Positions 3,294 through 9,686 of a stretch of DNA of 64,000 nucleotides are shown piece after piece (position 1 is the stretch's first letter; the number at the start of each line of letters is the position of its first letter). Under the pieces are notes generated by a model. It ran no database searches, was not told where the DNA came from, and saw only the letters and a list, made by a program, of their open reading frames with translations. The DNA is from Streptacidiphilus sp. P02-A3a (GTDB taxonomy: Bacteria; Actinomycetota; Actinomycetes; Streptomycetales; Streptomycetaceae): contig NZ_CP048289.1 in NCBI RefSeq assembly GCF_014084105.1, positions 1,063,922 through 1,127,921 on the forward strand, given 5' to 3'. Both the position numbers and the translations under genes were made by a program.

Positions 3294-4628
3294 GTGTACC
3301 TGTCGCGCGTACGCATCGACGGCATCAAGGGGTTCCAGGGCGAACGCGCGGTGGACCTGACGCTGACCCGCCCGGACGGCGGCCACGCCGGATGGACGGT
3401 GCTCGCGGGCCGCAACAGCTCCGGCAAGACGAGCCTGTTGCAGGCCGTCGCGGCGGCGCTGCTCACCCCGGTGCAGGCGTACGGGCTGGTGCCCGACCTG
3501 TCCGCCTGGCAATCGGCCGACCCGGGCCTGATCGAGCTGACCCTCACCGGCTCCGCCGCCGACCCGGCCGCCGCGCCGGGGAACCGGGTCGAAGGGGTGG
3601 CCCGGCGGGCGGACATCGAGGTCAGCTGCACCTGGCAGCTCCCGCCCGGGCGGGAGCACCTGCGCCCGCAGGTGGTCTGGCGGCGACGGCCCAGCGGCGG
3701 AGCCGACAGCGCCGAGGCGGATGCCCTGGCCGACTCGGAGTGGGAGTTCGCGCTGCTCGGCAGCATCGCCGGGTACGGCCCCTACCGCCGGATGAGCCGG
3801 TCCGCCGCCCGCCGCGACGACCGGGCCTTCCTCTCCCTCTTCGACGAGGAGGCGGCGCTGAACGACTGCGTCGCCTGGCTGGTGGACGCCGACCACCGGC
3901 GGCTGGAGGGCAGGCCCGGCGCGGCCGAGACGGTGGAGGCGGTACTCGGGCTGCTCGGCGACGGGCTGCTGCCGGACGGCCTGCGGGTGTCCGGGGTGTC
4001 CTCCGAAGGCCTCTCGGTCACCGACGGGAGCAGGGAGTTCCCGCTCATCGAGATGAGCCAGGGCGTGCGCACGGCGGTGGCGCTGGCGGTGTCGCTGATC
4101 TGGGAGCTGGCCCGGGAGGACCCGGCCGCCCACCTCCGGCGGCGCGACGGCCGGTTCGTGGTCAGCCGCCCCGGCATCGTGCTGATCGACGAGATCGACG
4201 CCCACCTGCACGTCACCTGGCAGCAGCGGATCGGCTACTGGCTCAAGGCGCACTTCCCCGAGATCCAGTTCCTGGTCACCACCCACAGCCCGTACATCTG
4301 CCAGGCCGCCGACCCGAACGGCCTGATCCGGCTCGGCGCCCCCGGCGACGGCACCGCCCCGGCGGTGGTGGACGAGGAGCTGTACCGCCGGGTCGTCTAC
4401 GGCAGCGGCGACGACGCGATCCTCTCCGAACTCTTCGGCCTGGAAAGCCCGTTCTCGGCGGAGGCGGAGCAACTGCGGCGTCGTGCGGGTGACCTGGAGG
4501 ACGCGATGCTCGACGGCGAGGCGACCGACAATGAGCGCAGGGAATTCGACGAACTGTCGGAGAAGCTGTCCAGCTCGCTGAGCACCAGGGCCGCCGAAGT
4601 CGCCGCGCGCCTGGGGCGGCCCACGTGA
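3294..4628 (+). CDS. ptuA: AAA/OLD-like ATPase, candidate Septu defence protein PtuA
   Basis: Soluble 444-residue ABC/OLD-class ATPase. Visible motifs are Walker A GRNSSGKT (residues 39-46), a signature-like MSQG (254-257), Walker B GIVLIDEIDAHLH (294-306) and an H-loop TTHSPY (329-334). There is a charged, helix-rich C-terminus after 385. The size, the DEID-x-HLH Walker B and an immediately following HNH nuclease gene overlapping by GTGA match the PtuA-PtuB arrangement of Septu anti-phage systems, where the ATPase assembles with and controls the nuclease. The GTG start at 3294 is preceded by AGGAGG. It lies 16 nt after oxyR but is unlikely to be functionally linked to it. Other OLD-like SMC-type ATPases paired with HNH proteins remain possible. 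Confidence 0.8.
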   Translation: MYLSRVRIDGIKGFQGERAVDLTLTRPDGGHAGWTVLAGRNSSGKTSLLQAVAAALLTPVQAYGLVPDLSAWQSADPGLIELTLTGSAADPAAAPGNRVEGVARRADIEVSCTWQLPPGREHLRPQVVWRRRPSGGADSAEADALADSEWEFALLGSIAGYGPYRRMSRSAARRDDRAFLSLFDEEAALNDCVAWLVDADHRRLEGRPGAAETVEAVLGLLGDGLLPDGLRVSGVSSEGLSVTDGSREFPLIEMSQGVRTAVALAVSLIWELAREDPAAHLRRRDGRFVVSRPGIVLIDEIDAHLHVTWQQRIGYWLKAHFPEIQFLVTTHSPYICQAADPNGLIRLGAPGDGTAPAVVDEELYRRVVYGSGDDAILSELFGLESPFSAEAEQLRRRAGDLEDAMLDGEATDNERREFDELSEKLSSSLSTRAAEVAARLGRPT

Positions 4629-5368
4629 TTCCACTGCGACGCCCGCCGCTGCCGGTCGAGTTGGGGGTTCGGTTGGGTGTCCAGCGGGAGCGTCTGGCGG
4701 CCCGGCCGCGGGTGGACGTGCCCACCGCCCGCGACGCCTGGCGCGGGGCGCGTACCGTCCGCCGGGACATCGGCGAACTGCTGGTGCTGATGGCTGCCGG
4801 ACATGCCCGGTGCATGTACTGCTGCGACAGCCAGGGGACCAGCGTCGACCACTTCGAGCCGATCATGCTGGCGCCGCTGCGGGCCTTCGACTGGTCCAAC
4901 CACCTGCTCGCCTGCTCCTACTGCAACAGCAATCAGAAGCGTGAGCTCTTCCCCCGCGACGACGTCACCCAGGAGTGCCTACTGGTGGACCCGACCGTCG
5001 ATCCGCCGGAGCGGCACCTGCGGCTGCGTCTCGGCGACGGCCGCTACCGGGGCCTGACCGAGAAGGGACGGCGCACCATCGAGGTCTTCGGCCTCAACAG
5101 CCGCCAGAGTCTCGTGCTCGGCCGACTCGATGCCGTGGCCCAGTGCCAGGGCATGCTGCGGGACAGCGTGCGGCAGACCGGCGGCGGGAACCTGGAGGGG
5201 GCCCGACGGATGCTGGCGGCGCTGAGCCGCAGGCCCAACGGCGACGTCCTCTACGCCATGCTGAGCCGCCGGGACCTGCCCGACGCCGCGCGCCTGCTCG
5301 GCGGGGACGACGTGGTGACGGCGCTCCACCAGTTGGCGGCCATGATCGACAAGGCCCGTCTAGTCTGA
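4625..5368 (+). CDS. ptuB: HNH endonuclease, candidate Septu defence protein PtuB
   Basis: Protein of 247 residues with a zinc-stabilised HNH nuclease core: CMYC (Cys63, Cys66), VDHFEPI with the catalytic-type Asp75-His76, Asn92, CSYCN (Cys97, Cys100, Asn101) and Lys105 before LFP. This C-x2-C...DH...N...C-x2-C-N layout is the one seen in PtuB-like and other phage-defence HNH proteins. The N-terminal 50 residues are basic and the C-terminal 100 residues show no recognised domain. The GTG start overlaps the ATPase stop by 4 nt (GTGA), implying coupled translation and a fixed stoichiometry. The predicted role is DNA cleavage or degradation on infection, gated by the ATPase. G+C is like the surroundings, so acquisition is not recent or came from another actinomycete. 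Confidence 0.8.
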   Translation: MIPLRRPPLPVELGVRLGVQRERLAARPRVDVPTARDAWRGARTVRRDIGELLVLMAAGHARCMYCCDSQGTSVDHFEPIMLAPLRAFDWSNHLLACSYCNSNQKRELFPRDDVTQECLLVDPTVDPPERHLRLRLGDGRYRGLTEKGRRTIEVFGLNSRQSLVLGRLDAVAQCQGMLRDSVRQTGGGNLEGARRMLAALSRRPNGDVLYAMLSRRDLPDAARLLGGDDVVTALHQLAAMIDKARLV

Positions 5369-6540: not shown

Positions 6541-6768
6541 TCAGGACCAGAAGGCGGCGGTGGTGGAGTCCGGGCCTTCCGCGCTGTGGCCGACGATTCC
6601 GCGCACCTGGTCCAGCGGATCACCCAGGACGAGGGCGATCTGCTCCGCACTGGCACCGATGGTCGCAGCCTCACGCATCAATTCCGCCCGCTCCTGGGCC
6701 TGGCTGACCGCGAGTTGGTGCAGCCGGGCGAGTGCGCCCAAGACATCCCCCGCTGTCCCTGTTGTCAT
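6541..6768 (-). CDS. Small hypothetical protein (75 aa)
   Basis: Helix-rich, acidic 75-residue protein starting MTTGTAGDVL. The segment RAELMREAATIGASAEQIALVLGD has the spacing of a helix-turn-helix, so a small DNA- or protein-binding regulator is possible; no family is recognised. GAGGGAAG precedes the ATG at 6768, and a longer upstream open frame looks non-coding. It is divergent from the exported-peptide gene at 7045 and may share its control region. Confidence 0.55.
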   Translation of the reverse strand: MTTGTAGDVLGALARLHQLAVSQAQERAELMREAATIGASAEQIALVLGDPLDQVRGIVGHSAEGPDSTTAAFWS

Positions 6769-7044
6769 GTCTCCATCTTCCCTCAAGACAGCCCGTGGTA
6801 GGGAGGGTTCCACCTTGAGGAAAGCGTGAATTGCGGTGCGATCCACGCTGTCGCCGATGAACCGGGCGGCCACCCCCGGCCGGGCACAAGCTTGAGAACC
6901 GGTCAGATTCGTGACGGCCGAAGGAATCTGTGAGATGAGGGGGCAGCCGGGGAACATGAGCATGCCGTACCATCCATAGCGTACTTAAGCTAATCCGGAA
7001 CGTCAGTACGGAAGGCGGATGATCCCGCCCCGAGAGGAGCCGAG
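6769..7044. promoter_or_regulatory. Divergent control region upstream of the small exported peptide gene
   Basis: A spacer of 276 bp between two divergent small genes. It contains an unusually A+T-rich core (about 6965-6995, including CTTAAG) flanked by CGTAC/GTACG half-repeats at about 6980 and 7005. This is a plausible promoter/operator for the peptide gene; no consensus can be assigned. Confidence 0.4.
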
Positions 7045-7242
7045 ATGCGCGCACGGCGCGTTCGTACGGTGCTTGTGTCTCTGGGACTAGTTGCTGCTGC
7101 GGTCCTCACCGCCGTCGTGGCAAATGGCCCGGTCCGGAACGCCCAGCCGCGAAAGTCGGTCGCTGTCGACATCGTCTGGGACGCCCAGCGGGTCGGAACG
7201 GCGTCCCCCGCCGACATCGTCTGGGACGGCGCGAACGCATAG
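7045..7242 (+). CDS. Predicted exported peptide precursor with twin DIVWD motifs
   Basis: Precursor of 65 residues. A basic N-terminus (MRARRVRTV) is followed by one hydrophobic stretch (LVSLGLVAAAVLTAVVA), that is, a signal peptide or single membrane anchor. The remaining ~30 residues carry the pentapeptide DIVWD twice, in VAVDIVWDAQ and SPADIVWDGA, the second copy 5 residues from the end. GAGAGGAG lies upstream of the ATG. No family is recognised. The compact form and internal repeat resemble precursors of processed signalling peptides. It is convergent with a LuxR-type regulator gene across a long hairpin, a possible receptor partner (inference). A short membrane-anchored protein of unrelated function is the alternative. 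Confidence 0.65.
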   Translation: MRARRVRTVLVSLGLVAAAVLTAVVANGPVRNAQPRKSVAVDIVWDAQRVGTASPADIVWDGANA

Positions 7243-7317: not shown

Positions 7318-7371
7318 TTCCGACGCGAGGGGCCTCGATCTCGGGGGTGATCGAGGTCCCTTCGCGCCGGA
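7318..7371. terminator. Long bidirectional hairpin between the peptide gene and the LuxR gene
   Basis: The core stem pairs 7329-7340 with 7349-7360 (11 of 12 bp) around an 8-nt loop. Pairing continues outward to about 7318 and 7371 with one bulge and one further mismatch, a stem of more than 20 bp. It lies between convergent genes, so it is probably a shared terminator. Confidence 0.75.
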
Positions 7372-7419: not shown

Positions 7420-8403
7420 TCACCAGTCCGCGGGCAGCCCGTCCGGGTATTCCCCCCGGATCCGGTAGGCGAGTTCCGCCAGCGAGTCCGCGTCGAAGAT
7501 CTTCCGGGTCTTCTCCAGATGCCGGTTGACGGTCCGCAGGGACATCGCCAACGCCGAGCCGATGGCCTCGGTGGTCATTCCGCTGACCAGCAGTCGGATG
7601 ATCCGCCGCTGCTCCCCGGACAACTGCTTTCCCCGCGCTATTTCCGGGCGCTCCTCGAACGGCGAGGCCCGTTCCCAATTCTGCTCGAACAGCCGGTTTA
7701 TGAACGCCACCATGGACGGCTCACGGTTGAACACCGCGATCTCGGTGTCGCCGTCCAGCGGGTACATCACCATGTCGTCGATCAGGAAGACCCGGTCCGG
7801 CAGGTGCGGCAGGGTCCGCACCTCGGCCCCGGCCTCGGTCACCGTCCGGACGAACTGCACGCTCGGGGCGTGGTGCCGCTGGGAGTCCTGGTAGAGCATC
7901 TGCCGCTGGATGCCCCGGCGGGCCATTTCGAGTTCCGAGGCGATCGTCGCCCTGATCAGCTCGGCCGGTCGCGGCCCGCCCGGCTGGATCGTCCGGAGCC
8001 GTTTCACCGGCCCGCTCAGCACCAGTTGGAGCTGCTGGCCGACGGCCTCCTTGCCGGCGACGTACTGCACCAGCGAGGTCTCGTCGTGCCAGGCGCGCTC
8101 CGCGCGGTAGGCGGTGGTCAGCGTCTGCCAGTGGCCGCGCAGCTCGGCCGCGCGCGCCAGTTGGGCCGCCGCGCGGCGCTCCTGCTGCGCGGCCGCGGTC
8201 TCCGGGTCCACCGGCACCAGCACCGGTCGCTTGACCCCGGGTTTGAGCAGTCCGAGATCGAGCAGACGCTGACGGTGGTCGGTCACCGGATCGGCGTCGT
8301 CCGCGGGCGGTGGCGGGGTGATCGGGATGGCTCCGCTCTCCACGGCCTGGAGGTAGAGCTCGACTGCCTCGGCGGGCAGTTCGCCGAGCAGGTCGTCGTT
8401 CAC
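7420..8403 (-). CDS. LuxR-family (GerE-type HTH) transcriptional regulator
   Basis: Regulator of 327 residues. The last ~65 residues form a LuxR/GerE helix-turn-helix (LSGEQRRIIRLLVSGMTTEA... then AMSLRTVNRHLEKTRKIFDA). The long N-terminal part has no phospho-acceptor or autoinducer-domain motif that I can recognise. It is helical at first (Ala/Arg-rich coiled region, about residues 65-110) and then alpha/beta (VFLIDDMVMYPLDGDTEIAVFN), which resembles the phospholipase-D-like effector domain of TrmB-type regulators; this is inference. The GTG start has a poor ribosome site but overlaps the stop of an upstream 52-codon ORF by GTGA, so it is probably coupled to it. A plausible ligand is the product of the adjacent peptide gene. 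Confidence 0.85.
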   Translation of the reverse strand: MNDDLLGELPAEAVELYLQAVESGAIPITPPPPADDADPVTDHRQRLLDLGLLKPGVKRPVLVPVDPETAAAQQERRAAAQLARAAELRGHWQTLTTAYRAERAWHDETSLVQYVAGKEAVGQQLQLVLSGPVKRLRTIQPGGPRPAELIRATIASELEMARRGIQRQMLYQDSQRHHAPSVQFVRTVTEAGAEVRTLPHLPDRVFLIDDMVMYPLDGDTEIAVFNREPSMVAFINRLFEQNWERASPFEERPEIARGKQLSGEQRRIIRLLVSGMTTEAIGSALAMSLRTVNRHLEKTRKIFDADSLAELAYRIRGEYPDGLPADW

Positions 8404-8658: not shown

Positions 8659-9213
8659 TCAGGCGGACTCGGGGTAGGCCAGCGAGGTGTCCGCCCAGTC
8701 GAGTGCGGTGACCACGGCGTGCTGGAGGTTCTTGGCGGACCAGTTGGAGTCGAACTGGATCGGCAGCACCGGGCAGACCTCCTCCAGCGTGGAGATCATC
8801 GGGTTGTGCGACACGGCGTGGTCCACCAGCAGCACCAGCGGCTTGCGCAGCGCGGAGGCCCAGCCGAGCTCCATGCCGACCCCGGCCGAGAGCGGTGCCT
8901 CGACATAGGCGAAGGCCAGGTCGGCGGACTGCATGCCGCGGAACGCGGAGGGGACGCGGATTCCGGTGCCGAGGCCGCGGGTGGCCCAGCAGTCGTCGTG
9001 GTGCTGGCTGTAGACGGTGACACCCGCGTCCAGCAGGGCGTCGCGCAGGGCGGTGACCTTGCCGCGCAGGGCGAGCGGGAAGACCCCGTCCGCCGGTCCG
9101 GTGAGGCGCAGTGAAGGAGCAGCAAGGAAGACCCGCAGGCAACGGCGCGCGTCGGCGGCGAGATCGTCCTCGGTGGCGCGGCTCTTCTGGTCCACGCCGT
9201 AAAGCTCGCTCAT
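8659..9213 (-). CDS. Nucleoside 2-deoxyribosyltransferase-like protein
   Basis: Cytoplasmic alpha/beta protein of 184 residues. MQSADLAFAYVEAPLSAGVGMELGWASALRK follows the pattern ADL-x-hydrophobic...GxxxELGxAxAxxKP of the nucleoside 2-deoxyribosyltransferase/TIR-like (STIR) fold, with the catalytic-type Glu in the MELGWA block. Members exchange or hydrolyse N-glycosidic bonds, and related folds cleave NAD in defence or signalling. Here substrate and activity are unknown. The ATG at 9213 has GGAG at proper spacing; a second ATG 12 nt upstream does not. It faces the same way as the small ORF and LuxR gene (about 100 nt apart), suggesting one transcript. Confidence 0.65.
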   Translation of the reverse strand: MSELYGVDQKSRATEDDLAADARRCLRVFLAAPSLRLTGPADGVFPLALRGKVTALRDALLDAGVTVYSQHHDDCWATRGLGTGIRVPSAFRGMQSADLAFAYVEAPLSAGVGMELGWASALRKPLVLLVDHAVSHNPMISTLEEVCPVLPIQFDSNWSAKNLQHAVVTALDWADTSLAYPESA

Positions 9214-9686
9214 GTTCCGCTCCATCGAGATAGTTGACCTGGTAACATCAAGTCCCCTACGGGGACAGGGGCTTGACGTTCAGGCGGCCGGCGCCGGCGG
9301 CCCATCCGGGGGGATGTCCTGATCCTTGCCTGTGCGTCGTACAGGTGTCCATCAAAGTCCGGTGGCCTATACATGCCTGTCCGAACGGGACACCCCTGCG
9401 CCGTTCGAGGCCCGCGGTGATCACGGCTCGATGGCATAAGTGCATGTCAAAGCCGTCAATGCTGCTGCCTGCGGCAAAGGGTTCAGCGCTGCCGAACCGT
9501 CGCGGACATGCCCATTCGAACGGCAGCCGACGGCACCGGACCGGGGGTGGTGTCGCGAACGGTCAGCGTCCGCATTCCGGGACGATCGCACCCCGGCTGC
9601 GGAAAGCCCGGCCGGGACCGGGCGCGGACACTATTCTTCGGTGCGACGACTGCGACGACCACTTCGGCACGATAAGGATCCGACCT
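9214..9686. other. Intergenic region of about 470 bp, divergent control region
   Basis: This lies between the deoxyribosyltransferase-like gene (minus) and a membrane protein gene (plus). An open frame runs through it on the plus strand, but it has atypical composition, no ribosome site and no recognisable product, so I treat it as non-coding. A TAAGGAT close to 9675 fits the ribosome site of the downstream GTG. No terminator or repeat stands out. Confidence 0.5.

Follow-up and report, generated by a model that had tools for sequence, protein, structure and literature searches.

What is encoded by a frame of only 65 amino acids in which the pentapeptide DIVWD occurs twice, and does its product act as a signal? 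The frame lies at 7045-7242 (+) of the 64,000-nucleotide stretch of the Streptacidiphilus sp. P02-A3a genome analyzed here (the window), convergent to a LuxR-type regulator gene at 7420-8403 (-). The original prediction was that of an exported precursor, processed to signalling peptides that carry DIVWD and linked to the LuxR-type gene. Our preferred reading, held at a probability of about 0.8, is that the precursor gives rise to a linear pentapeptide pheromone, DIVWD, which would be exported, re-imported and bound by the cognate TrmB-LuxR regulator.

Translation of this putative peptide-signal precursor gene, stop codon included in the coordinates, gives MRARRVRTVLVSLGLVAAAVLTAVVANGPVRNAQPRKSVAVDIVWDAQRVGTASPADIVWDGANA*. 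The predicted layout of 65 residues with a basic, hydrophobic leader and two DIVWD copies, the second near the C-terminus, held: residues 1-27 (7045-7125) resemble a signal sequence with basic N-terminus and hydrophobic stretch, the first core occupies residues 42-46 (7168-7182) and the second residues 58-62 (7216-7230), ending three residues short of the C-terminus. The claim of a strong ribosome site held as well, as the purine-rich GAGAGGAG (7032-7039, +) is located 5 nt 5' of the ATG, is identical before the ortholog in genome G013 and recurs, in alignment with it, 5' of the peptide genes in two additional relatives. That the exact repeat is not expected by chance was confirmed, with an exact 5-mer repeat of any kind arising in 248 of 200,000 shuffles of the precursor tail (about 0.1%), but comparative evidence is the stronger argument. 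At the DNA level the two cores do not differ, and hence their identity in this gene could stem from recent duplication or gene conversion. Neither Pfam nor NCBIfam yielded a family match for the window precursor, and none of their families covers the related precursors described below. An inverted-repeat search detected 13-nt arms with an 8-nt loop between the two convergent genes (7328-7361), possibly a shared terminator; a scan for T-tract terminators at the peptide locus found none, nor was a sigma-70 promoter found where one was looked for at this locus. A palindrome bound by the regulator 5' of the peptide gene was also considered, and only a weak inverted repeat (76%) was seen.

A protein search with the 65-residue precursor retrieved a single true relative, which belongs to another genome of the genus, G013 (74% identity, E 5.8e-24). 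This ortholog is syntenic and keeps frame, leader and both core copies in the form DIVWN. Loss of the repeat in relatives had been named as an observation that would refute the prediction; the repeat is kept in the ortholog, and multi-copy precursors proved common. Between the two genes the D, I, V and W residues of both cores are unchanged (8/8), as are their codons and the first 14 codons of the gene; outside leader and cores 11 of 28 residues differ. The change from D to N at position 5 in both copies cannot be weighed alone, because the cores of the window pair are DNA-identical. Further matches of the protein search (E 3.7e-4 or weaker) were rejected as relatives, lying mostly in larger open frames and looking like matches of leader composition, and a search of genome contigs with the same protein found no relative. 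Of 395 family genomes, G000 and G013 alone contain the literal double DIVW pattern and the other 393 lack it, so that it was too narrow as a family query and the conserved unit has to be sought in D-x-x-W-x instead of DIVWD. DIVWD as the motif was thus only partly upheld: it is one version of the general signature D-x-x-W-x, and the exact spelling is rare. A codon-string pattern of the C-terminal core was uninformative, with four matches, one of them beside a LuxR gene, versus three with reversed-pattern controls.

The family was assembled not from the precursor, but by fetching homologues of the LuxR-type gene and seeking adjacent short ORFs. In total, 102 distinct short D-x-x-W precursors were found within 420 bp of a homologous regulator in Streptomyces and relatives, 72 of them divergent, 27 convergent and three co-directional (99 on the opposite strand). 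Contigs were scanned with a 6-sequence LuxR alignment, since one of 18 sequences was too diverse, and the set of named loci is consequently biased to one clade. In 43 of the 78 testable loci (80 were named) an ORF ending in D-x-x-W lay immediately upstream of the regulator on the opposite strand, versus 0.4 expected from dinucleotide shuffles, which answers positively the co-occurrence check proposed with the original prediction; across the 80 named loci the signature did not occur on the other strand of the upstream segment and occurred at most twice in any other segment. Among the 33 signal-like short ORFs of 49 LuxR loci, 27 carried D-x-x-W tails (3.0 expected from shuffles), versus none of the three in 48 control loci.

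The precursors beside the homologues share a plan of basic start, hydrophobic stretch and D-x-x-W-x, and are otherwise dissimilar. Cores beside regulator homologues include DLGWT (three copies), DLGWQ and DSAWT (two each) and DSVWD, as well as DSAWG, DSQWG and DPEWG at the C-terminus, and some precursors of Streptomycetaceae (loci L204-L211) hold five to ten copies. The clearest members, in which DVGWG, DSGWT or DSTW-x is repeated 7-10 times, are L204 973-1335, L206 977-1339, L209 2747-2989 and L211 2606-2962. The window genome itself possesses 13 regulator homologues, and five of the pairs found there have five different cores; besides the pair studied here these are L069 2641-2832 (DPAWG), L083 1013-1174 (DLGWG), L108 1363-1527 (DQTWG) and L110 3300-3494 (DLAWG). 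In the gene table of a Streptomyces plasmid one family peptide (L235 3237-3371) is annotated as hypothetical protein. No peptide partner was detectable at several named loci and at the plasmid loci L234, L236 and L237; at L234 (1848-2885, Streptomyces plasmid) the homologous regulator stands between AfsA-related genes. In the tandem LuxR arrays L117, L118 and L119 a single peptide gene is found amid several closely spaced homologous regulators, and cross-talk or decoy receptors are conceivable there. A LuxR locus of another genome of the genus, G006 (L082, L120), is identical to one in Streptacidiphilus jiangxiensis.

Which part of the precursor is the functional unit was inferred from its repeats, bearing in mind that D at position 1 and W at position 4 were fixed by the search definition. 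For positions 2-3, identity within 21 multi-copy precursors was 0.96, versus 0.26 between precursors; for position 5 it was 0.86 versus 0.31. The flanks after the core agreed within multi-copy precursors at only 0.34. At 26 of 72 identical residue positions the copies used different synonymous codons, including AGC versus TCC for serine, which indicates that selection on the peptide, and not only recent duplication, keeps the copies alike; this argument is not applicable to the window gene itself, whose cores are DNA-identical. Exactly one residue separates the last W from the stop in 57 of the 102 precursors (zero, two, three and four residues in one, four, two and three precursors, respectively), so the product is probably a pentapeptide; for DIVWD the calculated monoisotopic mass is 646.30 Da. 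Position 5 varies within a few multi-copy precursors (DSTWV, DSTWA, DSTWT), which makes D-x-x-W the minimum unit.

A chance ORF without function can be all but excluded. It could be argued for by the single close ortholog found in direct sequence searches and by a codon-position G+C of 0.77, 0.54 and 0.75, less skewed than in the regulator gene. It is contradicted by the comparative data, namely the position-specific enrichment upstream of the regulators, the synonymous variation between identical repeats in relatives and the conserved ribosome site.

The proposed receptor is a protein of 327 residues (7420-8403, -). Its C-terminus matches Pfam GerE (PF00196, 28.7 bits versus a cut-off of 23.5), and the LuxR/GerE helix-turn-helix at residues 255-320 (7444-7641) is supported by Pfam, profile search and fold match. 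A profile search matched TrmBL2 over profile positions 25-260 (E 6e-10), and in the AlphaFold model (pLDDT 88) residues 4-250 match the TrmBL2 fold (Z about 15), with a large overall rmsd; the sensor part of the model resembles the folds of archaeal TrmBL2 and phospholipase D, and its C-terminal part resembles GerE proteins. With an N-terminal winged-helix part and a phospholipase-D-fold, TrmB-like sensor domain at residues 106-246 (7666-8088), the protein meets the architecture of TrmB. Pfam found neither a TPR nor an acyl-homoserine-lactone (autoinducer-binding) domain in it.

Receptor similarity and core similarity were correlated (Mantel r 0.37, reached in 0 of 2000 permutations), which could possibly result from common descent alone. 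Two controls bear on this objection. When receptors were thinned to below 75% identity (67 left) and cores shuffled only inside clades, the observed value was not reached in any of 500 permutations, whichever of three clustering levels was used. When mock labels were taken from 109 non-sensor columns, none of the 109 was as strong as peptide positions 2 and 5 versus the sensor domain; for position 3 the covariation excess was weak and was reached by 2 and 8 of the 109 control columns. The sensor residues covarying with the peptide are L129, Q140, P144, L149, T153, E157, I208 and D219. Most of the covarying positions (129, 140, 144, 149, 152/153 and 157) fall within residues 129-157 (7933-8019, -), and the top ones, 140, 144, 149, 152/153 and 157, belong to the QPGG loop and one face of helix 147-162 of the model, although they were not placed on model coordinates. 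With Ser at position 2 of the peptide, most receptors carry D157; with other residues at that position, several carry A or S; and the window receptor has E157 with Ile at position 2 of its peptide. The covariation between the sensor and the variable positions of the peptide, stronger than in the controls, goes further than the evidence of the original prediction and is the sole support for the inferred binding.

The neighbourhood of the pairs bears on a further explanation, according to which the precursor belongs to a ribosomally synthesized and modified peptide (RiPP): the D-x-x-W-x core would be enzymatically modified and the LuxR protein merely a cluster regulator, as with the repeat-core thiovarsolins or tiny precursors of the biarylitide type. 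In its favour, the NCBIfam entry for thiovarsolin matches the multi-copy precursor L211, though below threshold (E 6e-4, 20 bits versus a cut-off of 35), and short Trp-containing cores are known as RiPP substrates. However, genes for a modifying enzyme, a protease or a permease are not recurrent neighbours of the pairs within about 1.5-2 kb in 159 LuxR loci, although distant enzymes are not excluded, and the only gene that recurs in most loci is the regulator (144/159). Furthermore, a regulator that merely governed the cluster, without sensing its product, would leave the covariation of core and sensor domain unexplained; the window precursor matches no known precursor family and L211 stays under the thiovarsolin cut-off. 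The RiPP reading is hence considered unlikely.

Other genes near the locus were noted. Upstream of the regulator, a nucleoside-deoxyribosyltransferase-like protein is encoded at 8659-9225 (-), with a Pfam match just below the cut-off; a related ORF adjoins the LuxR homologue in 20 of the 159 loci, and a link to the peptide system is unproven. Close to the peptide locus, two overlapping genes at 3294-5368 (+) match PtuA (E 2e-132) and PtuB (E 3e-80), a Septu anti-phage defence pair. A small ORF at 6541-6801 (-) without known family is conserved next to the peptide gene in the G013 locus.

Shown by computation are thus the conservation of the gene pair, the constrained pentapeptide unit, the multi-copy precursors, the domain architecture of the receptor and the receptor-peptide covariation; translation, export, cleavage, import, binding and transcriptional effect are all inferred without expression, peptide or binding data. 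In the mechanism proposed, the precursor would be exported via its signal-sequence-like leader, and outside the cell signal peptidase and other proteases would free the D-x-x-W-x cores, two identical ones in this case. Re-uptake, for which an oligopeptide permease is the simplest candidate, would bring the peptide to the LuxR-type regulator encoded convergently with it; binding to the TrmB-like sensor domain of this protein would alter the control of its target genes. Core residues 2, 3 and 5 would serve as the address and D1 and W4 as constant anchors, so that paralogous pairs in one genome could act as separate channels. The original idea that the peptide is exported and processed as a signal, with a link to the LuxR-type gene, was in this way supported and extended, with cleavage, export, re-import and binding remaining inferences.

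Alternatively, the peptide might act ahead of any re-import, or without it, staying in the cytoplasm or at the membrane as a co-factor or antagonist of the regulator inside the producer, without any intercellular role. About 12 of the 102 precursors lack a clear hydrophobic segment, e.g., the 29-residue MYRTVSAAHTCFSERTRHGKRARKDSAWG, so export may not be universal, and some of these, 28-29 residues long, have the same DSAWG end; moreover, the regulator has a DNA-binding domain and is therefore presumably cytoplasmic. Precursors of 29 residues without hydrophobic leader, still ending in DSAWG, are L138 1645-1734, L145 1644-1733, L154 1644-1733 and L126 1643-1732. Against intracellular action, 90 of the 102 precursors have a hydrophobic segment or leader (judged by hydropathy only), an [AVSG]-x-A triad resembling a signal-peptidase site directly precedes a core in 33 precursors, and amplified core copies suit extracellular processing. 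We thus doubt this alternative. Even less probable is a small secreted surface protein that uses D-x-x-W for binding, e.g., to wall or carbohydrate, or as a structural element, and whose expression the regulator only controls. Repeated Trp motifs do occur in surface proteins, and TrmB-family sensors can bind sugars (title of PDB 2f5t); however, conservation does not extend to the rest of the protein, the core often forms the very C-terminus with exactly one residue after W, and core identity covaries with the sensor domain.

The pheromone reading, in its role as intercellular signal, rests on analogy with the RRNPP and Rgg systems. RRNPP systems of the Bacillota (Rap-Phr, PlcR-PapR, NprR, PrgX) and the phage arbitrium system AimR-AimP likewise have adjacent genes for a short exported propeptide and a cytosolic receptor, and small linear peptides, often C-terminal and sometimes in several copies, which vary specifically from pair to pair. 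An adjacent propeptide gene is present in the 102 pairs within 420 bp, and hydropathy supports an export signal in the window propeptide and in 90 of the 102. In contrast, the receptor here combines a TrmB/phospholipase-D-fold sensor with a LuxR helix-turn-helix and has no TPR match, and the core is D-x-x-W-x, in Actinomycetota. In the streptococcal Rgg-SHP and ComR-XIP systems a small peptide gene also lies by, and often opposite to, its regulator. Their pheromones contain Trp like the D-x-x-W-x cores; Rgg and ComR are XRE plus TPR proteins, unlike the TrmB-LuxR regulator, and no sequence relationship was found for regulator or peptide. Archaeal TrmB and TrmBL2 resemble the regulator in sequence and fold over the sensor and N-terminal parts, but PDB titles describe TrmB as sugar-binding and TrmBL2 as a chromatin protein, and neither has a C-terminal GerE domain; to our knowledge no peptide gene is linked to them. 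The LuxR-type quorum receptors LasR, CviR and VqmA share the C-terminal GerE helix-turn-helix, whereas the sensor domain of the regulator is unrelated to theirs in fold and in proposed ligand class. By analogy, the D-x-x-W-x/TrmB-LuxR pairs would work like RRNPP and Rgg systems without sharing components and belong, by component, to none of these families.

Literature searches on the motif, on Streptomyces peptide signals with LuxR and on TrmB-LuxR proteins found no description; as coverage was incomplete, a prior description of the peptide family cannot be excluded. Streptomyces coelicolor imports an extracellular signalling oligopeptide in a BldK-dependent manner (PMC11303876). This signal differs in belonging to a named developmental cascade, and a gene for it is not known to have been identified.

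Signals of Actinomycetota are typically enzyme-made small molecules (PMC10075063), and communication in Streptomyces and relatives has been described mainly via such compounds, e.g., gamma-butyrolactones. As we infer, the window gene probably belongs to a large family of short peptide signals, so far undescribed, in which the regulator encoded beside each peptide senses it. With less confidence, though we lean towards it, DIVWD may be one address in a phylum-wide peptide language of many D-x-x-W-x pheromones, each with its own TrmB-LuxR receptor and with several private channels per genome, that is, a peptide quorum sensing with intracellular receptor of an origin independent of that in Bacillota. 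It becomes testable whether peptides imported by oligopeptide permeases of Streptomyces, such as the BldK-dependent signal, belong to the D-x-x-W-x family. If the reading is true, the many pentapeptides encoded in these genomes, together with the receptors predicted for them, would offer a simple switch of regulators by synthetic peptides, and could help to find the controls of silent gene clusters or of development.
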